Origin: Komagataeibacter swingsii
GTDB taxonomy: Bacteria; Pseudomonadota; Alphaproteobacteria; Acetobacterales; Acetobacteraceae
Length of the DNA: 64,000 nt
NCBI RefSeq assembly: GCF_003207895.1
Contig: NZ_NKUB01000002.1
Span: 124,001-188,000 of the forward strand
Reading direction: 5' to 3'
Below, in pieces: positions 7,304 through 58,204 of the stretch (its first letter is position 1; every line of letters starts with the position of its first letter). Made by a program: the position numbers and the translations under genes. Under the pieces are notes generated by a model. That model worked only from the letters and a program-made list of their open reading frames with translations. It did no database searches and was not told where the DNA came from.

Positions 7304-7385
7304 AACGTTCTTGGGGACGCTTTTTTCACGAAGCCATAAAGAACGCCGCCTTTTAAAACAAAGGCGGCGCCCAAAAACTTTTATT
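7304..7385 (-). repeat. Dispersed two-hairpin 3'-end element, copy A
   Basis: One of seven copies in the window. The GCCGCCTTTT/AAAGGCGGC hairpin (7336-7358) and the right arm CCCAAAAACTTTT are intact. The second hairpin and the left arm are degenerate (GTTCTTGGGGACGC). It lies about 17 bases after the phoU stop in phoU sense, so it probably acts as its terminator. Confidence 0.8.
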
Positions 7386-7402
7386 GTTTTTTTATGATTT
7401 TT

Positions 7403-8098
7403 TCAGTCAAACGTTTTCCCACGCGGCCGTATGATCGGCAGGATATTGCCGGTTACGGCATAATACACGCGTTCTGAAATATTGGTGGCATGGTCGCCAA
7501 TACGCTCAAGGTTCTTGGCAATGAACAGCAGATGGGCACAGGGACCGATATTGCGCGGGTCTTCCATCATGTATGTCACCAGTTCACGGAACAGGGAGAC
7601 ATAGAGTTCATCCACCGCCGTATCCGAATGCCAGACAATACGCGCCAGTTCCGGGTCGCGCTGGTCCATTGCATCAAGGGTGCGCCGCAGGTTTTCCTGT
7701 ACCAGCCGCCCCATGCTGTGCAGTCCCGTCAGCGAAATGGGGCATGACAACAGTTCGTTGCGCATGGCGCGGCGCGCGATCGAGGCCGCGCAATCCCCGA
7801 TACGTTCAAGGTCGCCCGAGATTTTCAGCGCGACCACCACCTCGCGCAAATCGCCCGCCATGGGGGCGCGCAGCGCCAGCAGGCGAATGACCAGCGCCTC
7901 GGTCTCGCGTTCCAGTTCATCAACCTGCGGGTCCATTTCGGGCGCGTCCAGGGCGGCGTCCTCATCATGTTCGACCACGGCGGTAATGGCCTGCGCCACC
8001 TGCCGTTCCACCAGGCCGCCCATCTTGTTCACCAGCGAACGGAGCTGTTCAAGTTCCTGTTCATAGCTCTGGACCGTATGTACGGATTCATGTGGCAT
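7403..8098 (-). CDS. phoU: Phosphate transport system regulatory protein PhoU
   Basis: About 231 residues, starting MPHESVHTVQSYEQELEQLRSLVNKMGGLVERQV. It has two PhoU three-helix repeats with the acidic metal-binding motifs seen in the family: EMDPQVDELERETEALVIRLLALRAP, and later AVDELYVSLFRELVTYMMEDP followed by ARNLERIGDHATNI-like wording (KNLERIGDHATNISERV). PhoU signals through the Pst transporter to the PhoR kinase to silence the Pho regulon when phosphate is plentiful. Two adjacent ATGs (8101 and 8098) could be used. It is the last gene of pstC-pstA-pstB-phoU and starts 17 bases after pstB. Confidence 0.95.
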   Translation of the reverse strand: MPHESVHTVQSYEQELEQLRSLVNKMGGLVERQVAQAITAVVEHDEDAALDAPEMDPQVDELERETEALVIRLLALRAPMAGDLREVVVALKISGDLERIGDCAASIARRAMRNELLSCPISLTGLHSMGRLVQENLRRTLDAMDQRDPELARIVWHSDTAVDELYVSLFRELVTYMMEDPRNIGPCAHLLFIAKNLERIGDHATNISERVYYAVTGNILPIIRPRGKTFD

Positions 8099-8115
8099 CA
8101 TTACTGCTTTCGCTG

Positions 8116-8913
8116 TCAGCCGAAGCGGCCGGTAATATAATCCTGGGTGCGCTTGGCATGGGGCGCGGTGAACATCTTGTCCGCGGTGTCCACCTCCACC
8201 AGTTCGCCCATGTAGCAAAACGCGACACGGTCCGCGCATCGCGCCGCCTGCTGCAGGTTGTGCGTCACGATGGCGATGGAGAATTCCTGCTTCAGTTCAT
8301 CCAGCAGTTCCTCGATCCGGGCGGTGGAAATCGGGTCGAGCGCGCTGGTCGGTTCATCCAGCAGGATGACCTCGGGGCGTGTCGCGATGGTGCGGGCAAT
8401 GCACAGGCGCTGCTGCTGCCCGCCCGACAGGGCGGCGGCGGAGGCATTGAGCCGGTCCTTGACCTCGTTCCACAGCGCCACGCGCCGCAGCACGCCTTCC
8501 ACGCGCTGGTCCATGTCCGCGCGCGACAGGCGTTCATGCAGCCGCACGCCAAAGGCGATATTGTCGTATATGGACATGGGAAACGGCGTGGGTTTCTGGA
8601 ACACCATGCCAATGCGCGAACGCAGCACGTTCACATCCAGCCCGGGCGAGAGGATGTTGCGCCCGTCAAACAGCACCTCCCCCGTCGCGCGCTGGCCGGG
8701 ATAGAGGTCATACATGCGGTTGAGCACGCGCAGCAGCGTGGACTTGCCGCAGCCAGATGGCCCGATCATGCCCGTGACCTGGTGCACCGGGAAATCCAGC
8801 GAGATGTCCTTCAGCGCATGGTTGCCGCCGTACCAGAAATTCAGGTTGCGGATCGCCAGCGCCGGCAGGACCGTATCGCGGCCCATCGGGTCATCCATGA
8901 TGATTTTGTTCAT
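8116..8913 (-). CDS. pstB: Phosphate ABC transporter ATPase PstB
   Basis: A 265-residue ATPase: Walker [10 protein letters not shown] (51-59), signature LSGGQQQRL (162-170), Walker B VILLDEP (182-188). PstB-specific wording includes [36 protein letters not shown] and [20 protein letters not shown], ending QDYITGRFG. It energises high-affinity phosphate import through PstA and PstC. The start codon overlaps the pstA stop (ATGA), so the two are probably translationally coupled. Confidence 0.97.
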
Positions 8914-12908: not shown

Positions 12909-12970
12909 TAAAAAGCTTCAAAAAAAGCCACCTTTTTGAAAAAAGGTGGCACACAAAAACTTTTATTATT
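12909..12970 (-). repeat. Dispersed two-hairpin 3'-end element, copy B (partial)
   Basis: Carries AAAAAGCTTC, the hairpin GCCACCTTTTTGAAAAAAGGTGGC (12928-12951, read as arms GCCACC/GGTGGC) and the right arm ACAAAAACTTTTATT. The GCC-to-GCCACC/GGTGGC change is compensatory, so pairing is kept. The left outer arm is lost. It lies 8 bases after the ppk2 stop in ppk2 sense. Confidence 0.75.
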
Positions 12971-43545: not shown

Positions 43546-43621
43546 GTCAGGGCAGGAAACCCGCCACAAGGCGGACGGCCCATTCCCATCGAATGATAAT
43601 AAAAGAATAAAGTGGGTTAAA

Positions 43622-44434
43622 ATGCTAAAGAACCGACAGTTTCTGGGCGAACTGATATCAGAATGCATTGCGGTCATGATCATCGTCCTGATCGGCGATT
43701 CGGTGGCCGCCATGTACACGCTGTATGATCCCAGCCCGTACAAGCTCTCCTACTGGGGGGTGTCCATTGTATGGGGGCTGGGCGTGACCATTGCGATTTA
43801 CGTGACCGGCAGCGTATCGGGCACCCATGCCAACCCCGCCGTATCAGTGGCGCTGGCGCTATACCGTGGGTTTTCGTGGCGCAAGGTGCCCGCTTACTGT
43901 GCGGCGCAGGTACTGGGGGGCGTGCTGGGCGCGGCCCTTGTCTACACGCTGTACCAGCCAGTGATAGACCACTACAACCAGTTGCATGGCATAAGCCGCG
44001 CCGATGGCGGGGCGGCGGGGGTCTTCTTTACCCATCCGGGCGAATTCATCACGCCGCTCCATGCCTTCATGGATGAAACCATCCTGACGGCGCTGCTTGT
44101 GGGCGGCATCTTCGCGATTACCTGCGAGTACAATACCGTGGCGCCACAGGCCAATTCCAGCGCGCTGATCATCGGCCTGCTGGTGGCCAGCATTGGCGCG
44201 TGCTCGGGCTACCTGGAGGCATGGGCCATCAATCCCGCCCGTGACTTCGGGCCGCGCCTGTTCTGTTTCCTGGCCGGATGGGGCAGTTCCGCCCTGCCTT
44301 CGGCGGACAATTTCTGGTGGGTGCCGATTGCGGGACCCCTGCTGGGTGGCGTGATCGGCGCGGGCTGTTACCAGTTCCTGATTCGTCCGTTCATTCCGCG
44401 CCATGCCAGCGCGGTGCTGCCGCCGGTCCCGTAA
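43622..44434 (+). CDS. glpF: Glycerol uptake facilitator GlpF (aquaglyceroporin)
   Basis: 270 residues with six membrane segments and the two MIP half-helices: SGTHANPAVSVALAL and AWAINPARDFGPRLFCFLAGWG. The aspartate after the second NPAR (NPARDFGP) is the residue that marks glycerol rather than water channels. ATG 43622 is chosen because MLKNRQFLGELISECIAV aligns with family N-termini. The frame is open to 43286 but runs through the operator region. It is divergent from glpD and shares the GlpR operators. Confidence 0.93.
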   Translation: MLKNRQFLGELISECIAVMIIVLIGDSVAAMYTLYDPSPYKLSYWGVSIVWGLGVTIAIYVTGSVSGTHANPAVSVALALYRGFSWRKVPAYCAAQVLGGVLGAALVYTLYQPVIDHYNQLHGISRADGGAAGVFFTHPGEFITPLHAFMDETILTALLVGGIFAITCEYNTVAPQANSSALIIGLLVASIGACSGYLEAWAINPARDFGPRLFCFLAGWGSSALPSADNFWWVPIAGPLLGGVIGAGCYQFLIRPFIPRHASAVLPPVP

Positions 44435-44446
44435 CCGCCCTTTTTG

Positions 44447-44470
44447 CACCGCCGGATCATCCCGGCGGTG
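44447..44470. terminator. Hairpin downstream of glpF
   Basis: CACCGCCGG (44447-44455) pairs perfectly with CCGGCGGTG (44462-44470). It lies 13 bases after the glpF stop. No clear U run follows, so termination strength is uncertain. A dispersed repeat follows further on. Confidence 0.55.
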
Positions 44471-44531
44471 TCACGCCTTATCACAGGGCAAGTCCTGGCT
44501 GGACTGAATCCAATATAATTTTTTAAAAATA

Positions 44532-44611
44532 AAAAGTTTTTGGTAAAGATTTTTTCAAAAATCTTTAAAGAACGCCGCCTTTTAAAAAAAGGCGGCACCC
44601 CAAAACTTTTA
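44532..44611 (-). repeat. Dispersed two-hairpin 3'-end element, copy D
   Basis: Left arm AAAAGTTTTTGGTAAAGATT; hairpin AAAGATTTTTTCAAAAATCTTT (44545-44566, read as arms), a paired change from the usual GAAGCTT; second hairpin GCCGCCTTTT/AAAAGGCGGC; right arm CCAAAACTTTTA. It ends 5 bases after the Lrp-gene stop, in the sense of that gene. Confidence 0.85.
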
Positions 44612-44615
44612 GTAC

Positions 44616-45059
44616 CTAACGCTGTACCACGGTGCGGATGGCAAAGTTGCTCTGTATCCGGGCGACACCGGGCATACGCGACAGTTCTTCCTTGTGGATG
44701 CGTTCATAATCGGCGGCATCCCGCGCCTCGACGCGGACCAGATAATCGGCGTCCCCCGTCATCAGGTAACATTCGCGCACATCGGCGCAGTCGCGCACGC
44801 GGGCCTCGAAGCGGCGCAGGCATTCCTCCGTCTGGCGTTCCAGCGTGATCTGCACGATCACGGTGGTCATGCCATGGACCGAACGTTCATCCACCAGCGC
44901 GCGATAACCCCGGATCACCCCGTCCTTTTCCAGCATCCGCACCCGCCGCAGGCAGGCGGACGGGGACAGGCCGACCTTCTGCGCCAGTTCGGCATTGCTC
45001 ATGCGTCCGTCATGGCGGAGGTTGCGCAATATGGCGTCTGTCAGGCGATCGAATGCCAT
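44616..45059 (-). CDS. Lrp/AsnC-family regulator of D-alanine catabolism (DadR type)
   Basis: 147 residues. N-terminal HTH: FDRLTDAILRNLRHDGRMSNAELAQKVGLSPSACLRRVRMLEKDGVIRGYRA, read in parts. The C-terminal RAM/AsnC domain follows (TTVIVQITLERQTEECLRRF, YLMTGDADYLVRVEARD). It is divergent from dadX-dadA, as in Pseudomonas, where the Lrp-like DadR activates dadAX in response to L-alanine. The ATG at 45059 has GGAAAA upstream; a 19-residue longer frame is possible. Paired GTACGATCG elements in the shared promoter region may be its sites. Confidence 0.88.
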   Translation of the reverse strand: MAFDRLTDAILRNLRHDGRMSNAELAQKVGLSPSACLRRVRMLEKDGVIRGYRALVDERSVHGMTTVIVQITLERQTEECLRRFEARVRDCADVRECYLMTGDADYLVRVEARDAADYERIHKEELSRMPGVARIQSNFAIRTVVQR

Positions 45060-45093
45060 GGTGAATTTTCCGCTTATTTTCGTATATAATTGC

Positions 45094-45165
45094 GTACGAT
45101 CGCTCCTTAATGGCATGAAATTGCATCAAACGACAGGACATTTTGTTTCCATCAGGGTACGATCG
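45094..45165. promoter_or_regulatory. Paired GTACGATCG elements between dadR-type and dadX genes
   Basis: The 9-mer GTACGATCG occurs at 45094-45102 and 45157-45165, in the same direction. The starts are 63 bases apart, close to six DNA turns, so both lie on one face of the helix. That suits an oligomeric Lrp-type regulator. They flank the divergent promoter region. Confidence 0.55.
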
Positions 45166-45199
45166 TCCTGTCCCGCCAGCCCGATGGAGTACATGCCCC

Positions 45200-46345
45200 A
45201 TGCCTGACCTGCCTTCCTTCCCGCACGCTACCGGCTGGGCCGCGCCGGGTGCGGGTGCGATGCTGGAAATCGACCTGGGCGCGATCGCCGCGAATTACCG
45301 CCTGCTCAATGCCCGCACGGGCAATGCCACCTGCGCGGCGGTGGTCAAGGCCGACGCCTACGGGCTGGGCGCCCACCGGGTTGCCCCCATGCTGGAACAG
45401 GCCGGGGCGAACACCTTTTTCGTCGCCCATCTGGAAGAAGGCATCCGCCTGCGGCCGCATGTCGCCCCCACCGTACGCATTTTCGTCCTGCATGGCCCGA
45501 TGCCGGGAACACAGGCCGAATTCACGCGCCATGACCTGCTGCCTGTGCTGAACAGCATGGAACAGGTGGCCCGGTGGCGCGCGCATGCGGGCCAGATGGG
45601 CAATCCCCTGCCCGCCGCCCTGCAGGTTGATACCGGCATGTCCCGCTTTGGCCTGTCCGATGCGGATGTCGCCATGCTGGCGGACAGCCCGGACCTACTG
45701 GATGGAATCGATACGCAACTGGTGATGAGCCACCTCGCCTGTGCCGATACCCCGGCCAACCCGGCCAACGCCATGCAGCGCGACCGCCTGCGCGCCATGG
45801 CCGCCCGCCTGCCCGCGGCCCCGCTGGCGCTTTCGGCCTCATCGGGGATCTTCCTCGGGCCGGATTACCATTTCGACCTTGTCCGCCCCGGTGCGGCCCT
45901 GTACGGGCTGGCCCCCAATAACGATGCGCCCAACCCCCTGCATCCCACCGTGCGGCTGGCCGCGCGCATTGTCCAGCGCCGCGCCATCAGCGCGGGCGAC
46001 GGCGTGGGCTATGGCCTGACATGGCGCGCGACCGGGCCACGGCGGATCGCGACCCTGGGCATTGGCTATGCCGACGGGTTCCTGCGCCACGGCGCGGATG
46101 GCGGCGGATGTGCGTGGCTGGGGGAGTACCGGCTGCCGATCCTTGGCCGCATTTCCATGGATTCCACCACCATCGACGTAAGCGACGTGCCCGAAAGCGT
46201 GCTGGCGCAGGCCACGCATGTGGACATGATCGGCCCGCGGCGCAGCGTGGATGATGTCGCCCGGTCCGCCGGCACCATCGGCTATGAAGTGCTGACGGCG
46301 CTGGGTTCCCGTTTCCATCGCGCGTACCTGACACAGGCGGCGTGA
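45200..46345 (+). CDS. dadX: Alanine racemase (catabolic, DadX type)
   Basis: 381 residues. The PLP lysine is K50 in [16 protein letters not shown]. Family blocks follow: [47 protein letters not shown] and the second catalytic tyrosine in [12 protein letters not shown], then [13 protein letters not shown]. It interconverts L- and D-alanine in the cytoplasm. Pairing with dadA and an Lrp-type gene points to the catabolic rather than the cell-wall enzyme, though it may do both if it is the only racemase. ATG 45200 has GGAG upstream. Confidence 0.93.
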
Positions 46346-46379
46346 TGCGTTTCCACCCGCCAGAGAAGGCATCTGTGTA

Positions 46380-47636
46380 ATGAAAATCATCGTTCTGGGT
46401 AGCGGTGTCGTCGGCGTGACATCGGCATGGTACCTTGCGCAGGCAGGGCATGAGGTCACCGTGGTGGACCGCCAGCCCGAAGCCGGCCTTGAAACCAGCT
46501 TCGCCAATGCGGGCCAGGTCTCGCCGGGATATTCATCGCCCTGGGCCGGGCCGGGCGTGCCGCTGAAATCGGTCAAGTGGCTGCTGATGAAGTACCGCCC
46601 CTTCGTGTTCTGGCCCATGCCGGACCCGCATCTGTGGAAGTGGCTGGTGCAGATGCTGGAAAACTGCACCACCGCCGCCTATGACCGCAACAAGGGCCGC
46701 ATGGTGCGCATCGCAGAATACAGCCGTGACGTGATGCGCGACCTGCGCGCCAGCACCGGCATCACCTATGATGACCGCCAGCAGGGCACGTTGCAGGTTT
46801 TCCGCACGCAAAAGCAGATGGACGCCATCGCGGGTGATATCCGCGTGCTGGAACAGTACAATGTCCCGTACGAAGTCCTGACGCGTGAAGGCTGCGTGAA
46901 GGCCGAGCCGGGACTGGCGTCATCGGCGGACAAGATCGTGGGGGGCCTGCGCCTGCCGGGGGACGAGACGGGGGATGCGTTCATGTTCACCCAGCGCCTT
47001 GCGGCCATGGCGGCAAAGGCTGGCGTTACCTTCCACTACGACACCCGCATCCGCGCCATGACGAATGAAGGCGGCCATATTACCGGGATCGAGACCAGCC
47101 GGGGCCGGATGGTGGCGGATTCCTATGTCCTGTCACTGGGCAGCTATTCGCCCGCCATGGTGCGCCGCCTCGGGCTGGACCTGCCGATCTATCCGGTCAA
47201 GGGGTATTCGCTGACCGCTGACATCGTGAATGAAAAGCAGGCCCCGGTCTCCACCATCATGGACGAGACATTCAAGATCGGGATCACCCGCCTTGGCGAA
47301 CGCATCCGCGTGGGGGGCACGGCGGAACTGGCGGGCTTCAGCACGAAGCTGCGCGCGCCGCGGCGCGAGACGCTGGAACATTCGGTGACCGACCTGTTCC
47401 CCGGTGGCGGCAATATCGCAGCAGCCAAATTCTGGACCGGCCTGCGCCCGATGACCCCCGATGGTACCCCCATCATCGGCCGCACGAAGTACGACAACCT
47501 GTTCCTCAACACAGGGCATGGCACGCTGGGCTGGACCATGGCGTGTGGTTCGGGCCGGGTGCTGGCTGATATCATGTCGAACCGCATGCCCGACATCCCG
47601 TACGAGGATCTGGGCGTGGTACGCTACGGGCAGTAA
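46380..47636 (+). CDS. dadA: D-amino-acid dehydrogenase small subunit
   Basis: 418 residues. FAD motif GSGVVG (8-13) in [28 protein letters not shown], read in parts; then [48 protein letters not shown] and a closing [22 protein letters not shown]. This is the classic DadA pattern. It oxidises D-alanine to pyruvate and ammonia at the inner membrane, feeding electrons to the respiratory chain. It lies 35 bases after dadX. Confidence 0.95.
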
Positions 47637-47649
47637 AAACTGTTTGAAA

Positions 47650-47732
47650 AACAAAAGTTTTTGGGTGCCGCCTTTTTTCAGAAAGGTGGCGTTCCCTGAA
47701 GCTTTTTGAAAAAAGCTTCACCAAAAACTTCT
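47650..47732 (+). repeat. Dispersed two-hairpin 3'-end element, copy E
   Basis: One of the best-formed copies. It has arm ACAAAAGTTTTTGGGTGCC, hairpin GCCGCCTTTTTTCAGAAAGGTGGC (47668-47691, read as arms), hairpin GAAGCTTTTTGAAAAAAGCTTC (47698-47719) and arm ACCAAAAACTTCTTT. It begins about 14 bases after the dadA stop, in dadA sense. Confidence 0.88.
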
Positions 47733-47751
47733 TTATCTTCTGCCTTGTGTC

Positions 47752-48726
47752 TCAAGGACGGTCTTTAATACCGTGCTCCGCCGCCGTGGCGGGGGAAAAC
47801 CCGTCAGGCGGCCCATCCCCGCGCTGGCGCACGACCTGATAGACGGTGTTGCGCAGCCAGCGATGCACCGGGTCGCTATCGCGCCTTGGATGCCATGCCT
47901 GGAATGAATGCACCACGGGCAGTTCGAAGGGGAATTCGAACGCCTCAAGATGCATGGACCGAATGGGCAGGTAATCGATGGCGATACCCGGCAATGGCAG
48001 GATCATGTCGGTCATGCGCAGGGTCTCGACCATGGCGTAATAGGTCGGCACGACCATCACCACCCGCCGCTTCAGCCCGAACCGTTCCTTCAGCACCGTA
48101 TCGATCGGCCCATGCGGCCGCCCCCGGCGCGACACGCTTATATGTTCATACCGCGCGACCGAGACGGGCGTGATCCCTTCGGTCAGGATGGGATGGCCCG
48201 CGCGCACCAGCGCACGGAAGGACGTGGGAAAGATGCTCTGGCGGCGTATTTCCGAACGCATGTCGTCGGATGCGCCAAGATAGAGGTCGATCCGTCCTTC
48301 CCGCAGGTCGTTGCTCGGTTCCTCATCCGTTTCCGGGGCGAAGGTTAGGGTGCAGCCGGGGCATTCGGCCCGCAGCGCCGCAAGGATAGCGGCACCAAAA
48401 GCCCCCACGATCAGGTCGTTCGCCCGCAGGGTAAAATGCGGGGACAGGCCGGCGAGGTCGGGGGCGTCCTGCTCCTCCAGCAGGGCATCAGCGCCTTCAA
48501 CCAGCGCCTGCACTCGTTCACGGATGCCCAGCGCAAAGGTGGTGGCGACCAGCCTGCGCCCCGACGCCACCAGGATGGGATCGCCAAAGACCACACGCAG
48601 CTTGGCGAGGGTACGGCTCATGGCGGCTTCGCTCATCTGCAGCCTGCGCGCGGCGTGGGAGACGCCTTCTTCCTCGATCAGGGCCTGGAGGCTGCGCAGC
48701 AGGTCGAGATCGTAGCGTTTCCTCAT
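47752..48726 (-). CDS. LysR-family transcriptional regulator
   Basis: 324 residues. The N-terminal HTH reads DLDLLRSLQALIEEEGVSHAARRLQMSEAAMSRTLAKLRVVFGDPILVASGRRLVAT in parts. The inducer-binding domain follows, with FTLRANDLIVGAFGAAILAALRAECPGCTL and REGRIDLYLGAS, like the NodD/LeuO-type subgroup. It is divergent from the MFS-HlyD-OMF exporter and so is its likely regulator. ATG 48726 starts the conserved part. A perfect 7-5-7 inverted repeat (48788-48806) lies in the shared control region. Confidence 0.88.
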   Translation of the reverse strand: MRKRYDLDLLRSLQALIEEEGVSHAARRLQMSEAAMSRTLAKLRVVFGDPILVASGRRLVATTFALGIRERVQALVEGADALLEEQDAPDLAGLSPHFTLRANDLIVGAFGAAILAALRAECPGCTLTFAPETDEEPSNDLREGRIDLYLGASDDMRSEIRRQSIFPTSFRALVRAGHPILTEGITPVSVARYEHISVSRRGRPHGPIDTVLKERFGLKRRVVMVVPTYYAMVETLRMTDMILPLPGIAIDYLPIRSMHLEAFEFPFELPVVHSFQAWHPRRDSDPVHRWLRNTVYQVVRQRGDGPPDGFSPATAAEHGIKDRP

Positions 48727-48787
48727 GGCTCTGCGTTGCGTCCCCACCGTGAAACCGGAATGAAACCGTCCCGATTATCCTGAAAAA

Positions 48788-48806
48788 ACGGATTTGACCA
48801 ATCCGT
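48788..48806. promoter_or_regulatory. Candidate LysR-type operator
   Basis: ACGGATT-TGACC-AATCCGT: perfect 7-base arms with a 5-base spacer, ending in the ATT...AAT symmetry often seen in LysR sites. It lies between the LysR gene and the divergent exporter operon, 62 bases from the LysR start. Confidence 0.6.
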
Positions 48807-48867
48807 AAAATGAAAGTGTCACCTTACGCGAACATGGGTATTCGCGCACGCCCCCCGCGCCGATCAT

Positions 48868-50484
48868 GTGCCCGTTTTCCCATCGGGACAGATAAATGTG
48901 AACGCCGCCCCTTCCTACATCCCGCCCTTTGGCATCCGCACGGTCGTGGGGTGCCTTGGGGTGCTGCTGGCCGTGCATGTCGCCGGTTTCAATGAACACG
49001 TCACGGAAATCGGCCTGCCTGATATCCGTGGGGCGATGCATATCGGCCATGACGAGGGTACGTGGTTCATCTCCATCTATGAATGTTTCAACATCGCGGC
49101 GATGGCGTTCACGCCATGGTTCTACGTCACGTTTTCCATCTACCGCTTTACCCTGTTCATGACGGCGCTGCTGGGGCTGCTGGCCATTCCCGCGCCCTAC
49201 ATGCCCGACATGACCACGCTGTGCATCCTGCGCGCGGCGCAGGGTCTTTCGGCGGGGTGTCTGCCGCCCATCCTCATGACCGTCATGCTCAAATACCTGC
49301 CTGCCCCGCTGCGGGTATTCGGCATTGGCGGGTATGCCATGAGTGCGACCTTCGGCCCCAACCTTGGCGGCCCGCTGGAGGCGATGTGGTTCGAACATGT
49401 CGGCTGGCGGTGGCTGTACTGGGAAACGCTGCCGCTTTGCGCGGTGGCGGCGCTGATGATCGGCTGGGGGCTGCCACGCGACCCGTCGCACTGGGAACGG
49501 TTCCGCAACTTCAACTGGCGCGGGTTCGCGCTAGGGGTCCCGGCCATCATGTGCGTGGTGACGGTGCTGTACCAGGGCGACCGGCTGGACTGGTTCCGAT
49601 CCCCCGTCATCACGCACCTGACGTTCTGGGGCGGCGCGCTGTTCATCGCCTTCCTGGCGCACGAATGGTTCCACCACAGCCCGTTCTTCCGCATCCAGTT
49701 CTGGGGTAACCGCAATATCGCCGCATCGCTGCTGACGCTGGTGGCGTCGCTCATGATCTGTGGCCTCATGACGGAAATCCCGTTCACCTACCTTGCCGAC
49801 ATACGCGGCTACCGGCCCGTTCAGGCCGCACCCGTGGCGCTGGTGGTCGCGCTGCCGCAACTGGTCCTGCTGCCGCTGACGGCGGCGCTGTGCAATATCC
49901 GCGCGGTGGACTGCCGGTACGTGCTGGCCATCGGCCTCATCTGCCTTGGGGTTGCGGCGTGGCTGGGCACGTGGCTGACGCCGGACTGGGTGCGCGACAA
50001 CTTCATGGTCATCCAGATCCTGCAGGTCTTCGGGCAACCGATGGTGGTCATCCCCACCCTCATGCTGGCCGCCCTTGGGCTGGGACCCGCGGACGGGCCG
50101 ATGATCTCGGGCATGGTGAACATGCTCAAGGGCATGGCCAACGCGATTGCCACCGCCCTGTTCGAAGTCATGCTGCGCCGGCGCGAGCAGTACCACTCCA
50201 CCATGCTGCTGGACCTGCACGGCACGCATGGCACGGCGCTGGCGGGCATGGGCGACCCCATTGCCGGGCAGATCGCGGGCACGTCGCCCGATGCCGGGCA
50301 TGTGGCGCGCAACGCGCTGCAGATCTTCCATACCTACGTGCATGAACAGGCCACCGTGCTGGCGCTGGCGGACATCTACCTGCTGGTCATGTGGATCTGC
50401 GCCTTTTTCCTTGTCCTGACGGCAATCCTGCCCGGACGTATCTACCCCCCGCGTGCGCCGGTCCCCGCACCCGCCGCGCACTGA
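48868..50484 (+). CDS. Major facilitator drug exporter, EmrB/QacA (DHA2) type
   Basis: About 538 residues and roughly 14 hydrophobic segments. Family features are the early acid in the first loop (EHVTEIGLPDIRGAMHI), the segment-5 motif FGIGGYAMSATFGPNLGGPLEA and WRWLYWETLPLC. It would pump a hydrophobic or aromatic compound from the inner membrane using protons. Two starts are possible: GTG 48868 or GTG 48898 (VNAAPSYIPPFG). It is the first gene of MFS-HlyD-outer-membrane factor. Confidence 0.88.
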   Translation: MPVFPSGQINVNAAPSYIPPFGIRTVVGCLGVLLAVHVAGFNEHVTEIGLPDIRGAMHIGHDEGTWFISIYECFNIAAMAFTPWFYVTFSIYRFTLFMTALLGLLAIPAPYMPDMTTLCILRAAQGLSAGCLPPILMTVMLKYLPAPLRVFGIGGYAMSATFGPNLGGPLEAMWFEHVGWRWLYWETLPLCAVAALMIGWGLPRDPSHWERFRNFNWRGFALGVPAIMCVVTVLYQGDRLDWFRSPVITHLTFWGGALFIAFLAHEWFHHSPFFRIQFWGNRNIAASLLTLVASLMICGLMTEIPFTYLADIRGYRPVQAAPVALVVALPQLVLLPLTAALCNIRAVDCRYVLAIGLICLGVAAWLGTWLTPDWVRDNFMVIQILQVFGQPMVVIPTLMLAALGLGPADGPMISGMVNMLKGMANAIATALFEVMLRRREQYHSTMLLDLHGTHGTALAGMGDPIAGQIAGTSPDAGHVARNALQIFHTYVHEQATVLALADIYLLVMWICAFFLVLTAILPGRIYPPRAPVPAPAAH

Positions 50485-51579
50485 ATGATCGGGTCCGAAG
50501 CAATGCCCCACAAGAAACCCATCATCCTGGCTGGCGCCACGGTCATTGCCCTGGTTGCGGCCGCATGGACCGCCGACCGGCTGGTATCGGGCGATGGCGC
50601 CAGCGAATATACCAACGACGCCTATGTCACGGCGGATTTCACCACCGTGGCGCCCAAGGTGCCCGGCCGCATCGACCGCGTGATCGCGCAGGATAACGAA
50701 GCCGTCCACCCCGGCGAGGAACTGGCCCATATCGAGGACGAGGATTACCGCGCGGCGCTGGAGACGGCACAGGGCGAACGCGAAGCCGCACAGGGTGACG
50801 TGGCGAACCTTGAGGCCGAACTGGTGCGCCAGTCGGCCCTGATCGCGCAGGCGCGCGCCAGTGTCAGCGCGGATCAGGCGCAGCTTGCCTTTGCCCGGCA
50901 GAATGCACGGCGGTACCACAACCTGTCGGCGGACGGTTCCGGCACGCAGGAGCAGAACCAGGACAGCGCCGCCCGCCTGCTGGAAGCACAGGCCCGCCTT
51001 GACCATGACAATGCGGCGGTTGACGCCGAAACCGATCAGGTCGCGGTCCTGCGCGCGCGCCTGCTGCATGCGCAGGGCGCGCTGGAACAGGCGCGCGGGC
51101 GCGAACATACGGCCGCACTCAACCTGTCCTACTGCACCATCCCCGCCCCGGTCGAAGGCGTGGTGGGGGCACGTGGGGTACGCGTGGGGGCCTATGTCCA
51201 TGCGGGCACGGCCCTGCTGGCGGTGGTGCCGACGCAGGCGGCCTACGTGCTGGCCAATTTTCAGGAAACGCAGTTGACCCACGTACGCACCGGGCAGCGC
51301 GCGACCATCTGGGTCGATACCTTCCCCGGCCACCCGCTGCATGCCCATGTGGACAGCCTTGCCCCCGCCACCGGCGTCGCCTTCGCCCCGATCCAGCCCG
51401 ACAACGCCACCGGCAACTTCACCAAGGTGGTGCAGCGCATTCCCGTCAAGCTGGTATTCGACCCCGGGCAGACGCTGGCGGGACTGGTGCGCGTCGGCAT
51501 GTCGGTCGAAGCCCGTATCGACACCGTCACCGCGCCCGACGGCCCCCACGCGACGGAGGCCCGCTATGCTTGGCAGTAA
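50485..51579 (+). CDS. HlyD/EmrA-type membrane fusion protein
   Basis: 364 residues. Its ATG follows the MFS stop directly (TGA-ATG). One membrane anchor (ILAGATVIALVAAAWTADRLV), then the EmrA-type opening YTNDAYVTADFTTVAPKVPGRID, a long coiled coil (about 80-200) and the second lipoyl half (LNLSYCTIPAPVEGVVGARGVRVGAYV). The beta-barrel part is FQETQLTHVRTGQRATIWVDTFPG. It links the MFS pump to the outer-membrane factor. Confidence 0.9.
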   Translation: MIGSEAMPHKKPIILAGATVIALVAAAWTADRLVSGDGASEYTNDAYVTADFTTVAPKVPGRIDRVIAQDNEAVHPGEELAHIEDEDYRAALETAQGEREAAQGDVANLEAELVRQSALIAQARASVSADQAQLAFARQNARRYHNLSADGSGTQEQNQDSAARLLEAQARLDHDNAAVDAETDQVAVLRARLLHAQGALEQARGREHTAALNLSYCTIPAPVEGVVGARGVRVGAYVHAGTALLAVVPTQAAYVLANFQETQLTHVRTGQRATIWVDTFPGHPLHAHVDSLAPATGVAFAPIQPDNATGNFTKVVQRIPVKLVFDPGQTLAGLVRVGMSVEARIDTVTAPDGPHATEARYAWQ

Positions 51580-53125
51580 CGTCATGCAGGCCATACGCCA
51601 CCCCCGCGCCGTGCTGGCCCTGGGCGTGATCGCGCTGGTCGCCACCGGCTGCACGGTTGGCCCCGACTACCACCGCAAGGCACAGCCCGCGCCTGCGACA
51701 TGGCATGACAGCCTGCCGCCCGCCGAAAGCCATGTGACCGACGCAAAGGCGGACGCGCAGTGGTGGACCATTTTCAATGACGCCACCCTGACCGCGCTGG
51801 AAGCGCAGGTGGCGCAGGACAACCTTGACCTGAAAGCCGCGTCATGGCGCTTTGCCCAGAGCATGGCCGAACGCCGTATCGCAAGTGCGGCCCAGTTTCC
51901 CCATGCCGAAGCCAATGCGTCCTATGCCCGCGAACGCGCCAGCACCAATGGCATACTGGGGCTGCTGGGCACCATGGAACAGCAGGGCGCTGGCACGATC
52001 GCCAGCGGCACGCAGGGCTTTGGCCCCACGGCCATGCCCGGATCGATCGGCAACCCGTCCTTCAACCTGCCGCAGTACGGCATGAACGCGGCGTGGGAGG
52101 TAGATTTGTGGGGCCATGTGCGCCGCCAGGTCGAAGCCGCCACCGCCGCCATGCACGCAACCGAGGACATGCGGCGCGGGCTTATGGTCTCGCTCATGGC
52201 GGAAACGGCGCAGGACTACCTTGATCTGCGCGGCGTGCAGGCGCGCATGGCCATTGTCCGGCAGGATATCGACCTGGCCAGCCATACGCTGCGCCTGACC
52301 ACGCGCCGCCTGGACGAAGGGGCCGCGACCCGCATGGACGTGGCCGATGCATCGGGCCAGTACGAGGAATTCCGCTCGCGCCTGCCGGTGTTGCAGGACC
52401 AGGAAGCGCACCTGCTCAACGCCCTGAGCTTTCTGGTCGCCCGCGAACCCGGCGCGCTGACCCGCAACCTTGGACCCGGCGGCGGCGTGCCGCCGGTGCC
52501 GCGTGAAATTCCCGTGGGGCTGCCATCGCAACTGGCGGAACGCAGGCCCGACATCCGCATGGCGGAAGAACGGCTGCATGCCGCCACCGCCAGCATCGGC
52601 GTCGCCATTGCCGATTTCTTCCCGCGCGTGACCCTGTCGGGCAGCCTTGATGTGCAGGCGTTGCAGTTCAGCGGGCTGGGAAGCTGGGCATCGCGCCAGT
52701 ACGGTTTTGGCCCGACCGCGACCTTTCCCATATTCGAGGGCGGGCGGCTGACGGGACAGTTGCGCCTGCGCAAGGCGCAGCAGAAGGAAGCCGCCATCAT
52801 GCTGCAACGCACGATGCTCAAGGCATGGCAGGAAATCGACGATGCGATGGCTGACCTGTCATCGGCCCAGAACCAGCGCGACCGGCTGGCCGCCGCCGTG
52901 GCGCAGAACCAGATTGCCGTGCGCACCGCGCAGCGCCAGTATGCCGAAGGGTCGGCCGCGTTCCTGAACGTGCTGGACATGCAGGACCGGCTGCTGGATA
53001 CCCAGTCGCGCCTGATCGAGGCGGATGTGGCGGTCTCGACCGCTGTCACCCATCTGTACCGCGCGCTGGGCGGTGGGTGGGAAAGCCGTTATCCCCTGCC
53101 CCGGCCACACCGGAAAAAAGGCTGA
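51566..53125 (+). CDS. Outer-membrane efflux lipoprotein, NodT type
   Basis: 519 residues. ATG 51566 lies inside the 3' end of the HlyD gene and has GGAGG 7 bases upstream. Lipobox: IALVATGC-TVGPDYHRK, a typical NodT N-terminus. Two OEP repeats follow, with WWTIFNDATLTALEAQV, MNAAWEVDLWGHVRRQVEAATAA and LAERRPDIRMAEERLHAATASIGVAIADFFPR. It forms the outer-membrane tunnel of this tripartite pump. Confidence 0.93.
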   Translation: MLGSNVMQAIRHPRAVLALGVIALVATGCTVGPDYHRKAQPAPATWHDSLPPAESHVTDAKADAQWWTIFNDATLTALEAQVAQDNLDLKAASWRFAQSMAERRIASAAQFPHAEANASYARERASTNGILGLLGTMEQQGAGTIASGTQGFGPTAMPGSIGNPSFNLPQYGMNAAWEVDLWGHVRRQVEAATAAMHATEDMRRGLMVSLMAETAQDYLDLRGVQARMAIVRQDIDLASHTLRLTTRRLDEGAATRMDVADASGQYEEFRSRLPVLQDQEAHLLNALSFLVAREPGALTRNLGPGGGVPPVPREIPVGLPSQLAERRPDIRMAEERLHAATASIGVAIADFFPRVTLSGSLDVQALQFSGLGSWASRQYGFGPTATFPIFEGGRLTGQLRLRKAQQKEAAIMLQRTMLKAWQEIDDAMADLSSAQNQRDRLAAAVAQNQIAVRTAQRQYAEGSAAFLNVLDMQDRLLDTQSRLIEADVAVSTAVTHLYRALGGGWESRYPLPRPHRKKG

Positions 53126-53131
53126 AAAACA

Positions 53132-53160
53132 AAAGAAGTCTTTGGTGAAGCTTTTATTAT
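53132..53160 (-). repeat. Dispersed two-hairpin 3'-end element, copy F (deleted)
   Basis: Only AAGTCTTTGGTGAAGCTTTT joined to ATTATT remains. The outer left arm and half of one hairpin are kept; the GCCGCC hairpin is missing, as if removed by an internal deletion. It lies 20 bases after the FUSC stop, in FUSC sense. Confidence 0.55.
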
Positions 53161-53179
53161 TCCCCGGATATGACAGGGA

Positions 53180-55249
53180 TCATTCCACCCCCGCCGCCAT
53201 GGCGGTGAGGCAGGCCGCAGCCGTGCGGCTGATCCCGTCAAGGCAGGCCAGCACCTCCAGCAGCCTGCCATTGCCGGGATCAGCCTTTTCCATACGGGCC
53301 AGCCGCCTGCGCGTGGCCCGGACCATGGCGATGCCACGCGGGCTGACGGGGCGATAGCGCACCAGCACGCGCAACAGTTCGGTAATGACATCCGACACCG
53401 TATCGCGCCGCTGCCGCTTGAGCTGGCGCAGCAGCAGGATATTCAGCCCGACGGAAGAAAACATGAGCATGAGCCGGATACCGGCGGCGGCCGTGCGATC
53501 CCCTTCTTGCGTTGCATGGCGCACCATGCGCCCGATCCGATCCACGCTGGTGCCAATCCACCACTGGGGCGATGGCGGCAGGGGCACAAGGCACAGCCGC
53601 CGCAGTTCACCGCGTATATGCATGCCAAAGCGCAGCCGTTCATCGCGCGCGCGGAATGGCAGCACCAGCCGGAACACCAGCACGCTCAGCCCCACCGCCA
53701 GCACCGTATGGAAGGCGCCGTTGAGGAACGTGATTTCATCCACCCGGCTCTGGTTGCCGGGCATGAGCAGGTTGGGCATGAGCAGCCCGTAGGCCGCAGC
53801 CGCCCCCGCCGTGCCCCGGTTGCATTTGGCAAGCCCGCCCACGAACAGGAACATACCCAGCACGAAGGCAAATTCCTCATAATCCGTAAGATAGGGCAGA
53901 AGCCACAGGTCAAGTGTGCCTGCGGCAATGGCCGACCACACCGCCCCCGACAGGAACCGCGTCGTGCCCACGACCGGGTTTTCGCGCGTGGCGAACAGCC
54001 CGCAGACCAGCGTGGTAATGGCAATGAACCCCATGCCACCGGGCCATGCGGTGCATTCGTAGACGAAAGCCGCCAGCATGATGGCCACGGCCCCGCGCAA
54101 CCCGTTATGGAATGCCAGCCGGATATCGCGGTGGCCGCCCAGATGGAAGCGGAAGTGGTCATGCGGTGGCGGGCTGAAAATGGCATGGCAGTGATCCAGC
54201 GCCGTTTCCAGGTCATCCATCGTGGCCGCCAGCACGCCATGGGTAATGCGGGCCGTTTCCTGCACGCCATGCGCCGCGCGCCGTTCAAACAGGGTGCGCA
54301 GGTGCGCCACCTGCGCCTGCACGTCGTCCAGCGCACCGGACTTCAACCGGCAGGTCGCCAGCCGGTCACACAGGTGCAGCAGTTGTCCCCGCGTATCCGC
54401 CAGCACCCCGTCATCGGCCAGCATCGCGCGTTCCGCCCCGCCGGACAGGCCGACAAGGCGGGTGACAAGGATCGAGACCGCCGCCAGCACGGCGCGGGCA
54501 TGATCGCCCGCATGCACCTGTCGCCCCATTTCGATGGCCGGGAATTCCAGCCCCTGATGGACCGATACCACCATGTCCGAAAACTCACCGGCATGGACCA
54601 GCGTGTCACGGTCATGCAGCACGATTTCGCGCAGCAGCGCGCCAAGGCGATGCAGCACGTCTTCCACCTGCGCCACCATGGTCGCCTGCGCGCGCGTGGA
54701 CAGGCTGACGGTGAACAGCATGGCCATCCCCGCCTCGCACACCACGCCAAGGATGATGTAGGTGGCGCGCGAGATGCCTATGAAAAACACGTTATCCGGC
54801 GCGGATGCCGCCGCAACCGCAATGATCGAACAGGTATAGCCCGACAGCACGAAGGCATAGGAACGGAAGTTCAGGCAGAACGTGGCAAGGAAACTGCACA
54901 GCCCGATCCATGCCGCCACGGCGGGAAAGAACAGCCACGACTGCTGCGGAAAGGCGGCAATGAACACCACCGCCGCGACAGCGCCAACCAGCGTGCCCAC
55001 GATACGCCACCGCGCCTTGGACATGCTTTCGCCCCGGCGCACCTGCGCCACCGACCATACGGTGGCGACCGCCCATTGCGGGCTGTCCAGTTCCATCCAC
55101 AGCGCAATGGCCAGCGCCACGACCGAGGCAACGGTATTGCGCAGCGCGAACGCCACCGCCTGTGGCGTGGGACAGAACAGCCAGCGCAGCATGTCCACAC
55201 CCACAGGCCAGCGCACGGCCGGCCCGGGCATGAAGCGGGAAATATTCAT
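53180..55249 (-). CDS. FUSC-family aromatic-acid exporter-like membrane protein
   Basis: 689 residues. An N-terminal cluster of membrane segments begins AFALRNTVASVVALAIALWMELDSPQWAVATVWSVAQVRRGESMSKARWRIVGT, read in parts, the standard FUSC opening (YccS/AaeB family). A soluble helical middle follows, then a second cluster near 370-520 (AMLAAFVYECTAWPGGMGFI and on), and a cytoplasmic tail. FUSC proteins such as AaeB export aromatic acids. It is convergent with the EmrAB-type pump operon, so the two may share substrates, but they are not co-transcribed. Confidence 0.88.
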   Translation of the reverse strand: MNISRFMPGPAVRWPVGVDMLRWLFCPTPQAVAFALRNTVASVVALAIALWMELDSPQWAVATVWSVAQVRRGESMSKARWRIVGTLVGAVAAVVFIAAFPQQSWLFFPAVAAWIGLCSFLATFCLNFRSYAFVLSGYTCSIIAVAAASAPDNVFFIGISRATYIILGVVCEAGMAMLFTVSLSTRAQATMVAQVEDVLHRLGALLREIVLHDRDTLVHAGEFSDMVVSVHQGLEFPAIEMGRQVHAGDHARAVLAAVSILVTRLVGLSGGAERAMLADDGVLADTRGQLLHLCDRLATCRLKSGALDDVQAQVAHLRTLFERRAAHGVQETARITHGVLAATMDDLETALDHCHAIFSPPPHDHFRFHLGGHRDIRLAFHNGLRGAVAIMLAAFVYECTAWPGGMGFIAITTLVCGLFATRENPVVGTTRFLSGAVWSAIAAGTLDLWLLPYLTDYEEFAFVLGMFLFVGGLAKCNRGTAGAAAAYGLLMPNLLMPGNQSRVDEITFLNGAFHTVLAVGLSVLVFRLVLPFRARDERLRFGMHIRGELRRLCLVPLPPSPQWWIGTSVDRIGRMVRHATQEGDRTAAAGIRLMLMFSSVGLNILLLRQLKRQRRDTVSDVITELLRVLVRYRPVSPRGIAMVRATRRRLARMEKADPGNGRLLEVLACLDGISRTAAACLTAMAAGVE

Positions 55250-55334
55250 CTGATCCTGCCCGTCATGGCATGGCGGACACGTCCTGCTTCCCCTTACGGG
55301 AGCTGTTTGCCCATGAAAATCGTCTCAGGCAGCC

Positions 55335-57056
55335 CTAGCGGCCGGGGGCTGCCTTCTCGTACGGGCGGTACCGCGCGGTCCATACCGCGGCCTTCAGCGC
55401 GACCTCGACCGCCTCGGGCGATGCCTGCGGGGCGACACCTTCCGCCTGTCCCTGGCGGATTACGGCCCGCGCCACCGCCATGGCCACGGTGCGCAGTTCG
55501 GACACAGGGGGCAGCAGGGGCGCGGTTGCGCGGTCATCCGTCCCGCCCGCGGGCGAAAGCCCGGCCAGCGCATGGGCGGCGGCAAGGAACATGCCATCGG
55601 TCATGCGCGTGATGCCACCCGCCACAACCGCAAGGCCCACGCCGGGGAAGACATAGGAATTGTTGATCTGGTCCACCGGGCGCACGCACCCGTCACAGGT
55701 CACGGGCGCGAACGGGCCACCCGTGCCGATGATCGCGCGCCCGCCCGTCCATTCCAGCAGGTCCGCAGGTGTTGCCTCGATATTGGCTGTAGGGTTGGAC
55801 AGGGCGAAAATGACCGGGCGGACGGACTGCCGCGCCATGGGAGCCACGATATCACGGGTAAAGGCGCCGCCCTGCCCCGATGTGCCGACCAGCATGGTGG
55901 GGCGCACATTGTCCATCACCTCGGCCAGCGTGACATGGGCGGCATTGGCCACGTTCCACGTCGCCGCGATATCGGCGGGCTGCGCGAAAGGGCGCTGGCC
56001 TTCGGTCACGCCATCCATGCCCGCGCGCACAAGGCCGTTGATATCGACCATGAAGAAACGGCGATTGGCCTCAGCGGGCGTCATGCCTTCCGCCACCATC
56101 ATCTGCGCCAGCAGGTCGGCAATGCCGCAACCCGCGCCACCCGCGCCAAAAATGACGATCCGCTGCCGCGCCAGCGGGGCCGCACCGGCACGGATCGCGG
56201 CCAGCAGCGCGCCCGCCGTCACCCCGGCCGTGCCCTGTATATCATCGTTATACGTGCACATCCCGTCGCGATAACGACGCAGGATACGCAGCGCATCAGC
56301 ACCCGACAGGTCTTCCCAATGCAGGGCGATATTGGGCCAGCGCGCGTTAACGGCGTCCACGAATTCCGCAATGAAAGCGTCATAATCCGCCCCGCGCACG
56401 CGTTCGTGCCGCCAGCCGATATATTCCGGGTCCGCCAGCAGCGCCGCATTGTCGGTGCCGACATCCAGCAGGACGGGCAGCGCGCGGGCGGGGTCCAGCC
56501 CACCGCAGGCGGTATAGAGCGACAGCTTGCCAATGGGGATGCCCATGCCGTTGGCCCCCTGGTCGCCAATGCCAAGGATGCTGCCGCCGTCACTGGCCAC
56601 GATCACGCGCACCCCGTCCCATTGCGGGTCGGACAGGATTTCGGCAATGCGGCCCCGGTCCGTGTAATTCAGGAACAGGCCACGCGGGCGGGTCCAGATA
56701 TGGCTGAACTCCCGGCAGGCCCGACCGATCGCGGGCGTGTAAATGATGGGCAGCCATGCTTCCAGCGCCTGATCGATAATGGCGTAGAAAAGCGTTTCAT
56801 TCCTGTCCTGGATTTCGCGCAGCGCAATATGTCGCGAAAAGTTGTCCGGCAGCGCCGCCAGCCGCGCGCGGGCAAGGTCGGCCTGTTCTTCCAGTGTCGC
56901 AATGCGCGTGGGCAGGAGGCCATGCAGTCCGAACAGGTCACGTTCACGGCGGTCGAATGCATTTCCCTTGTTCAGCACTGGACAGTCCAGAAGTTCCCTG
57001 CCGGACAGCGCGGTTTTGAGGGAAGTATGGCAGTTGGACTGGACTGTATCCGACAT
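55335..57056 (-). CDS. maeA: NAD-type malic enzyme
   Basis: 573 residues, the large (about 565-residue) malic enzyme class. Blocks: GLLPTRIATLEEQ, YAIIDQALEAWLPIIYTPAIGRACREFS (with the catalytic tyrosine), VIVASDGGSILGIGDQGANGMGIPIGK, TYNDDIQGTAGVTAGAL and the cofactor motif VIFGAGGAGCGIADLL. It decarboxylates malate to pyruvate with NAD. Start ATG 57056 was chosen by family length; the frame runs to 57173. Divergent from a LysR gene. Malate-to-pyruvate flow supports growth on organic acids such as acetate. Confidence 0.93.
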   Translation of the reverse strand: MSDTVQSNCHTSLKTALSGRELLDCPVLNKGNAFDRRERDLFGLHGLLPTRIATLEEQADLARARLAALPDNFSRHIALREIQDRNETLFYAIIDQALEAWLPIIYTPAIGRACREFSHIWTRPRGLFLNYTDRGRIAEILSDPQWDGVRVIVASDGGSILGIGDQGANGMGIPIGKLSLYTACGGLDPARALPVLLDVGTDNAALLADPEYIGWRHERVRGADYDAFIAEFVDAVNARWPNIALHWEDLSGADALRILRRYRDGMCTYNDDIQGTAGVTAGALLAAIRAGAAPLARQRIVIFGAGGAGCGIADLLAQMMVAEGMTPAEANRRFFMVDINGLVRAGMDGVTEGQRPFAQPADIAATWNVANAAHVTLAEVMDNVRPTMLVGTSGQGGAFTRDIVAPMARQSVRPVIFALSNPTANIEATPADLLEWTGGRAIIGTGGPFAPVTCDGCVRPVDQINNSYVFPGVGLAVVAGGITRMTDGMFLAAAHALAGLSPAGGTDDRATAPLLPPVSELRTVAMAVARAVIRQGQAEGVAPQASPEAVEVALKAAVWTARYRPYEKAAPGR

Positions 57057-57173
57057 AAGAACCCGATATTGCGATAACAGTGGAAGGATGCGCAGGATAC
57101 GGATCTGCACATCTTCGTGTAGGCCATGCGACTGCACGCCAACCGTACGCCAGACGCAATCATGGGATGACAC

Positions 57174-58079
57174 ATGCCGGATGAAATCAGTGACCTGAAG
57201 TTTTTCTGCATCCTGACCGCATCGGGCAGCATTGCCGGCTGTGCACGCGCCATGGGCATGTCGCCCGCCGCCATGAGCCGCCGCCTCAGCGCCATGGAAA
57301 CCCGCCTTGGCACGCGTCTGGTCACGCGCACGTCACGCCATTTCGCCCTGACGGCGGAAGGCCAGCGCCTGCATGAACACGCGGTCAGGATCATGCAGGA
57401 GGTGGAGGAAGCCGAGGCCGAACTGACCGCGCGCGCCGGTATCCCGCACGGGCTGCTGCGCGTGGGCGTGCCGTCGGAAATCGGGCGCAAGCTGCTGGCC
57501 GGTGTCGTGGCGGCCTTTGTCGGGCAGTATCCCGATGTCACCGTGCACCTGACGCTGTCGGATGCGGGGCTGGACGTGATTGATGACGGGCTGGACATTG
57601 CCATCCGCCCCGGCATGCCGTCGGATCAGGAGGTCATGACCACCAGCCTGATCAACAGCCGCCGCGTGGTGTGCGCATCCCCCGATTACGTCGCGCGCAG
57701 GGGGTTGCCCGCCACGCCGCATGACCTGCTGAAGCATGACTGCATCTGCCTGATCCGCCGCCACCGCATATTCAATGAATGGGCCTATCTGGACGGTAAG
57801 GCGCGCAAGGAAATCCATGTCACCCCCCGCCTTGCCACATCCAGCAGCGAGGTCGTGCATGACTGGGCGGTAAACGGGCGGGGCATTGCGCTGAAGGTGC
57901 TGTGGGATATTGCCGATGACCTGAAATGCGGTCGGCTGATCGAATGTCTCAGCACCTATGCGTGGGAGGATGTGACGCTGTATGCTGTCTATCCCTCCCG
58001 CGCGCACCTGCCCTCGCGCACACGGTTTTTCCTTGATTTTGTAAGGCGTGAACTGCGCCAGAACTATTTCGGGGCTTAA
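57174..58079 (+). CDS. LysR-family transcriptional regulator
   Basis: 301 residues. HTH: LKFFCILTASGSIAGCARAMGMSPAAMSRRLSAMETRLGTRLVTRTSRHFALTAEGQRL in parts. The effector domain has GLLRVGVPSEIGRKLLAGVVAAFVGQYPDVTVHL, typical of the large LysR subgroup near DmlR/CrgA. E. coli DmlR controls D-malate use, so the divergent malic enzyme gene suggests regulation by malate or a related acid. This link is inferred. Confidence 0.88.
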   Translation: MPDEISDLKFFCILTASGSIAGCARAMGMSPAAMSRRLSAMETRLGTRLVTRTSRHFALTAEGQRLHEHAVRIMQEVEEAEAELTARAGIPHGLLRVGVPSEIGRKLLAGVVAAFVGQYPDVTVHLTLSDAGLDVIDDGLDIAIRPGMPSDQEVMTTSLINSRRVVCASPDYVARRGLPATPHDLLKHDCICLIRRHRIFNEWAYLDGKARKEIHVTPRLATSSSEVVHDWAVNGRGIALKVLWDIADDLKCGRLIECLSTYAWEDVTLYAVYPSRAHLPSRTRFFLDFVRRELRQNYFGA

Positions 58080-58125
58080 CGGCCGTGTGAAAAAACGGCC
58101 CAGGAAATATCCTGTAATCATATGA

Positions 58126-58204
58126 ACGTTTTTGGTGAAGCTTTTTTCAAAAAGCTTCAAGGAACGCCGCCTTTTTAAAAAGGGGGCGCCCAAAAACTTT
58201 TATT
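58126..58204 (-). repeat. Dispersed two-hairpin 3'-end element, copy G
   Basis: Left arm AACGTTTTTGGTGAAGC; hairpin GAAGCTTTTTTCAAAAAGCTTC (58138-58159); hairpin GCCGCCTTTTTAAAAAGGGGGC (58167-58188), with one mismatch; right arm GCCCAAAAACTTTTA. It lies 39 bases past the original oxygenase pseudogene stop and in its sense. The shifted frame of the pseudogene now reads into the element edge. Confidence 0.85.

Follow-up and report, generated by a model that had tools for sequence, protein, structure and literature searches.

Here, we address the question of what a palindromic repeat is, and what it might do, that occurs seven times within a 64,000-nucleotide stretch of the Komagataeibacter swingsii genome (assembly GCF_003207895.1, contig NZ_NKUB01000002.1, here C36, positions 124001-188000; referred to below as the window), which belongs to a draft genome of 3.73 Mb in 113 contigs. 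The repeat, referred to as the core, is an ~80-base sequence with two hairpins inside complementary arms. An earlier note, made from the sequence alone, had described every copy as lying just 3′ of a gene and as sharing that gene's orientation, and had considered a compound terminator, an RNA-stability or small-RNA module, or a mobile element. All seven places carry the described sequence, and the core motif AAGTTTTTGGTGAAGCTTTTT has 244 matches in the genome with at most three mismatches, as against 0 for the reversed control. We conclude that the seven repeats are very probably the surviving centres of decayed copies of a non-autonomous miniature inverted-repeat transposable element (MITE), which by its target rule is IS5/IS1031-like.

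This conclusion derives from the wider genome, in which many copies align far past the core and terminate in inverted repeats, GAGACTGTTTGAAAA/TTTCAAACAGTCTC. In most pairs of such ends, the intact unit is 162-163 bp long and is composed of 15-bp terminal inverted repeats (TIRs), short AT-rich arms and, centrally, the two-hairpin palindrome of ~80 bases. Scanning stretches of the genome (G000) for pairs of GAGACTGTTTGAAAA ends, with at most four mismatches per end, yielded 49 pairs, of which 34 with a spacing of 157-166 bp were retained, while 14 were excluded by spacing and one as an overlapping pair. Target-site duplications, which the earlier note had suggested looking for, were found: the triplets on the two sides match exactly in 24 of the 34 pairs, have one mismatch in seven and more in three, and follow the pattern TNA in 31 left and 29 right flanks. 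In a second, partly overlapping list, exact triplet duplication was present in 17 of 21 cases. TNA adjoining the TIR occurs genome-wide at 100 places with at most one mismatch and at 57 exactly, as against 1, 1, and 4 exact places in three relatives, searched with a slightly looser pattern; thus, the intact form has apparently multiplied recently in this lineage.

To follow individual sites, we compared them with 1.18 Mb of a relative (G200), in which we located 37 of 109 sites, counting as a core any nhmmer match of more than 8 bits. Twelve sites were classed by their own copy in G000 as having at least one near-intact TIR; of these, eight hold a core in G200, two are unoccupied, and two lack a core. 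The unoccupied sites are C47:124059, where the gap measures 170 bases in G000 and 7 in G200 (we take a 19-bit core tabulated here for an adjacent one that lies within the added flank), and C47:143730, where the gaps measure 221 and 2 bases and two cores present in G000 are both missing from G200. The TIRs, the duplications, the unoccupied sites, and the multiplication are established for the intact unit. In the alignments, several young elements are inserted into or next to older cores. Because eight of the 12 TIR-bearing sites keep a core in G200, we considered whether gene conversion by young copies had overwritten old ones in place. The alignments at L192, L204, and C25:161847 (with L195 beside one) reveal a new element that entered an older core or landed next to it, which makes conversion unnecessary at these sites; C25:373455 and C25:280689 are still compatible with gene conversion. 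Among the old sites, 22 of 25 are still occupied in G200, two of them in reversed orientation, namely, C25:176180 and C25:218273, the latter a near-symmetric fragment. The core at C25:176180 (L039:16180-16259) lies opposite to its G200 orthologue, as though inverted in situ.

Within the window, the full structure set out in the earlier note, with both hairpins and both arms, is present in five copies (7304, 34488, 44532, 47650, and 58126) and absent from those at 12909 and 53132. Gene neighbours were assigned from open reading frames (ORFs) and Pfam, bit scores refer to a covariance model of the core (R1), and MITE arms were sought by local alignment, with 300 shuffles as the control. Recognisable arms that beat all 300 shuffles were found in four of the seven copies (A, C, E, and G). 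The copies and arms are as follows:

7304 to 7385, minus strand: copy A, core with two hairpins, hairpin 2 damaged, R1 74.9 bits; in a tandem gap between phoU and an FAD-oxidase gene
7386 to 7412, minus strand: left arm and TIR of copy A, decayed; score 22.5, 0 of 300 shuffles as good
7278 to 7304, minus strand: right arm and TIR of copy A, decayed; score 17.0, 0 of 300 shuffles
12909 to 12970, minus strand: copy B, hairpin 1 and left arm, with hairpin 2 and the right (closing) arm mostly gone, R1 43.4 bits; between convergent PHO4-family and PPK2 genes
34488 to 34566, plus strand: copy C, full core, R1 85.0 bits; between convergent Rrf2 and pyridine-nucleotide oxidoreductase genes
34567 to 34585, plus strand: right arm and TIR of copy C, decayed; score 12.5, 0 of 300 shuffles
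44532 to 44611, minus strand: copy D, full core, hairpin 2 with paired changes, R1 94.3 bits, with orthologous copies in relatives; between convergent MIP and Lrp genes
47650 to 47732, plus strand: copy E, full core, R1 102.9 bits; between convergent dadA and LysR genes
47639 to 47655, plus strand: left TIR of copy E, a relic that overlaps the first core bases; score 14.0, 0 of 300 shuffles
53132 to 53160, minus strand: copy F, closing-arm fragment only; between convergent OEP and FUSC genes
58126 to 58204, minus strand: copy G, full core, R1 95.9 bits; between a LysR gene and a convergent ORF without a Pfam match
58197 to 58229, minus strand: left arm of copy G, decayed, overlapping the first core bases; score 24.0, 0 of 300 shuffles

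The left arm of copy C and the right arm of copy G did not reach significance (45 of 300 and 70 of 300 shuffles, respectively). The phoU stop codon (7403-7405; PhoU ends in ...KTFD*) lies inside the relic left arm and TIR of copy A, and the last codons of phoU may therefore come from the element. The relic TIR of copy E begins two bases past the dadA stop codon (47634-47636). At sites D, E, F, and G, relatives hold full, truncated, or missing cores. The gap between dadA and the LysR gene (site E) is coreless in K. intermedius, K. oboediens, and K. melaceti, while K. intermedius, like the window, has a fragment at site F, where the core is full-length in K. sp. FXV3, K. oboediens, and K. diospyri. 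Separately, the window contains gene-length direct repeats at 24785-26066 and 34580-35867 with 79-86% identity, apparently paralogues, of which the second is a pyridine-nucleotide oxidoreductase gene.

Several observations weigh against a decayed MITE as the source of the seven repeats. Copies B, D, and F have no significant MITE arm by local alignment against 300 shuffles, and exact triplet duplication is absent from 10 of the 34 pairs and from both unoccupied sites. The occupancy of 22 of 25 old sites in G200 is perhaps high for neutral relics, and part of this apparent durability of cores is ascertainment, as copies were found via the core. Finally, no autonomous element sharing the MITE ends was found by TIR and inverted-repeat scans of the examined genome stretches or of 40 IS5-type transposase loci (20 each of the 29 PF13586 and 28 PF01609 matches, some of which are at the same place).

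Based on the TNA rule and the ends starting with GAG, we propose that an IS5-family, IS1031-like transposase would move the MITE in trans. A TNA target and GAG ends are features of the IS1031 group. IS1031 and its derivatives are reported mobile elements of the genus (PMC6528568, PMC9818992), and insertion at three nucleotides is described as frequent among IS1031-group elements (PMC2516522). One transposase, L051, has ends other than those of the MITE. At L254-L257 (contigs C16, C48, C60, and C61), ends of the sequence GAGACTGTTTCGTAA share their first ten bases with the MITE ends and lie less than 900 bases from contig ends. Because these ends occur where contigs break, a collapsed multicopy insertion sequence (IS) is a candidate for the missing partner. 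A different IS5-type element with GGGCCTGTTGGG ends (L067, C58 near 127396) lies within hairpin 2 of a core.

The claim that the repeat always follows a gene and shares its orientation was not confirmed in that form. Six of the seven window copies lie between convergent genes; because a copy in a convergent gap is always sense to one of its two neighbours, whichever way it points, the seven-of-seven count says little, and only copy A, in its tandem gap after phoU, is informative on orientation in the window. We therefore turned to a sample of 1,204,826 bases, about a third of the genome, in which R1 gave 164 matches, many of them matches to both strands of one palindrome; the best 150 of the 164 reduce to 91 distinct places. 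Genes in this sample were called by a purpose-made hexamer script rather than a standard caller. All 91 sampled cores are intergenic, and none lies inside a called gene, a location that the earlier note had held would count against its proposal. Fifty-six cores lie in convergent, 30 in tandem, and five in divergent gaps, as against expectations of 16.7, 47.9, and 26.4 by intergenic bases (p of ~1e-19 for the convergent gaps) and of 14.6, 57.8, and 18.6 by gap number. The location bias toward convergent gaps is real. Regarding orientation, cores are in the sense direction in 19 of the 30 tandem gaps (p=0.20), where 22 of the 30 are nearer to the upstream stop, and of the 56 in convergent gaps, 30 are oriented like the gene whose stop is nearer. 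Because orientation in the 91-core sample is indistinguishable from random, an outcome that the earlier note had named as a refutation of its proposal, the sense-orientation rule was rejected.

The bias is already present in elements with intact ends. Among the young elements, a set partly drawn from a list selected for intact ends, 15 lie in convergent, 12 in tandem, and three in divergent gaps, four at sequence edges, and 0 inside a called gene; within the sample of cores, the convergent share is seven of 11 with both TIRs, 13 of 19 with one, and 36 of 61 with none. Because elements with intact ends are already biased (15 of 30), the convergent bias arises early. The target triplet coincides exactly with a stop codon in six of 30 young elements compared with 8.4% of TNA points in non-divergent gaps, a control that omits the divergent gaps in which three of the 30 elements lie; upon insertion at TAA or TGA, the stop would be restored. 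Moreover, nine of 34 young elements lie at most 40 bp from another core, compared with 224 of 2000 random intergenic TNA points (p=0.012), and four of 34 lie inside another core, compared with 72 of 2000 (p=0.036). We suggest that new copies would preferentially enter the intergenic DNA that follows genes, in part within or next to older copies, that copies would persist in this intergenic DNA because they are least harmful there, and that, once inserted, they would decay near the neutral rate. The bias is better explained by targeting, by rapid loss of harmful insertions, or by both than by long service, and the first two causes are indistinguishable in the present data.

How do other explanations of the repeat compare? 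The core RNA could fold as a three-way junction, and one alternative is that the repeat is a structured small RNA or 3′-untranslated-region module, selected for this junction and sense to the upstream gene. The six window copies that were folded beat the shuffle mean (z of -2.6 to -5.6; for copy C at 34488, four of 200 shuffles fold equally well), and the paired base changes pointed out in the earlier note are seen in copy D. Over 49 copies, however, covariation is weak rather than absent. In this set, which comprises copies of 76-84 bases from the 72 best of the 91 and excludes the young subfamily, 17 double-change cells were observed versus 9.4 in shuffles (3/500), the covariation score was reached by 8/500 shuffles, and the paired cells also exceeded shuffles (3/500), yet pairing was 88.7% versus 88.0%; a smaller set of 22 copies gave eight double-change cells versus 4.0 in shuffles (11/500). 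The outer stem is paired in 83.6%. Conservation is 0.855 in the left outer arm, 0.914 in the right outer arm, and 0.93-0.96 in hairpin 2, and the faster decay of the left arm is unlike a stem under selection. With the orientation indistinguishable from random as well and no Rfam match at gathering score across the window, nor at E values up to 1 in 43500-59000, we consider a selected RNA module very improbable. A strongly conserved RNA element was dropped, given the arm decay, the weak covariation, and a divergence close to neutral (see below). In columns 9-13 and 79-83 of alignment A7, T-to-C changes make up 38/245 in the left arm and A-to-G changes 15/245 in the right arm, though the arms should pair. 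Even less probable, with a chance that we regard as slight, is that the repeat is a palindrome of the repetitive extragenic palindrome (REP) or REPIN type, mobilised by a REP-associated tyrosine (RAYT, Y1) transposase. The extragenic location, the palindromic form, and the more than 200 matches would agree with such a repeat; however, Y1_Tnp (PF01797) had 0 matches in the 113-contig draft genome, while five of 14 control genomes matched, a RAYT gene flanked by copies was not found, and TIRs with 3-bp duplications suit DDE transposition. Of the MITE/REP-like mobile element envisaged in the earlier note, the MITE form is thus borne out by the TIRs, the TNA duplications, the many intact copies, and the two sites unoccupied in a relative, while the REP/RAYT form is not.

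The remaining alternative is that MITE-derived cores have been retained between convergent genes, where they would act as terminators or insulators in both directions, with their RNA stopping or stabilising transcripts from both sides. We regard this as unlikely, even though several observations point toward it: 56 of the 91 cores lie in convergent gaps, 54 of the 120 convergent gaps of at least 25 bp contain a core, 22 of 25 old sites are occupied in G200, and paired cells and double-change cells each exceed shuffles. On the other side, the rule for an intrinsic terminator, a G+C-rich stem followed by a T run, fits 16 of the 56 cores on their own strand and two of 56 on the other, and gaps with a core are not short of other terminators (20 of 54 with a core versus 22 of 66 without; p=0.70), on which ground replacement of canonical terminators by cores was rejected. 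A terminator scan of 43500-59500 was at the shuffle level, with 11 found and 11.7 expected. Moreover, cores have been lost or truncated at window sites in several relatives, and, as described above, elements with both ends intact are already biased toward convergent gaps. In 14 orthologous pairs, the core is 79.1% identical, compared with 70.3% for the rest of the same gaps and 82.3% for four-fold sites. These pairs are those of the 22 occupied old sites with at least 45 bits and the same orientation, and four-fold sites come from C25 genes only; the selection of better cores raises the 79.1% figure. By this comparison, the core appears to diverge at nearly the neutral rate, although its identity exceeds that of the remaining gap sequence. 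Thus, the location of the compound terminator that the earlier note had considered fits, while the sequence rule, the near-neutral divergence, and the lack of a trade-off with other terminators speak against it; a terminator or insulator role is without sequence support, and the density (54/120) and the occupancy leave it possible. We also speculate, with considerable doubt, that transposition rather than base-by-base selection may renew a two-way insulator RNA at nearly half of the convergent junctions, with new copies homing on old ones; if true, renewal of junctions by transposition would account for near-neutral sequence alongside conserved occupancy. Our preferred interpretation is still that the cores are relics of a MITE.

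Across the family, the motif, with at most two mismatches, is present in 11 of 200 genomes drawn and in four of 102 genera: this genome has 217 matches, three congeners have 21-131, three genomes of a second genus 185-226, three genomes of a third genus 1-27, and one other genome a single match. The closest named relatives at one window gene are K. diospyri, K. intermedius, and K. sp. FXV3, with 96% protein identity. Among 80 named loci around one gene, R1 (E up to 0.01) matches 12 of the 13 Komagataeibacter loci, the exception being K. melaceti, all four Novacetimonas and Gluconacetobacter entanii loci, and two of the 63 others, both from Acetobacter and one of them weak. With one young MITE as the query, six plasmid records match, five from Komagataeibacter and one from Novacetimonas, and a phage collection gave no match. 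The copy on a K. nataicola plasmid lies between convergent genes. Plasmid p1 of Novacetimonas hansenii (L231, about 3000-3170) carries an intact MITE that is 92% identical and has a TAA duplication; plasmid-borne spread between genera is possible. The MITE on p1 lies directly after an IS630 transposase gene.

Among known systems, ERIC, Correia/NEMIS, RUP, and SPRITE have another size, other ends, and another target, and are set apart here by description, not by sequence. They share with the present element that they are palindromic, intergenic, MITE-like repeats, and SPRITE resembles a rho-independent terminator (PMC10969869). IS5-family MITEs of the IS1031 group are likewise short and gene-less (judged here from element length alone), with TIRs, 3-bp TNA duplications, AT-richness, an intergenic place, and a structured transcript; short size, TIRs, AT-richness, intergenic place, and structured transcript are general MITE features in the same source (PMC10969869). 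The present element differs from them in that no autonomous partner was found and in its core with two hairpins inside complementary arms. REP, BIME, and REPIN sequences are also numerous, dispersed extragenic palindromes (for REPINs, PMC3116915), and some IS elements target REPs (PMC1525189), while here there are TIRs, target-site duplications, a 162-bp unit, and no Y1 transposase found. Bidirectional intrinsic terminators share the position between convergent genes; however, most cores lack a G+C stem directly followed by a T run. In the open-licence literature on the repeat or the group's mobile elements, as far as its text was available, we met no description of this repeat. The element is classed here as a new MITE family, while intergenic structured MITEs as such are already well known (PMC10969869).

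Altogether, our findings account for a conspicuous repeat of Komagataeibacter and Novacetimonas, the industrial producers of cellulose and vinegar. The many intact-ended copies suggest recent movement in this lineage, and such copies could be used for strain typing. The element is mostly ordinary mobile DNA, for which a job in ending transcription is possible, and its density at convergent gene ends provides a natural test of insertion preference versus selection against harm versus useful function.

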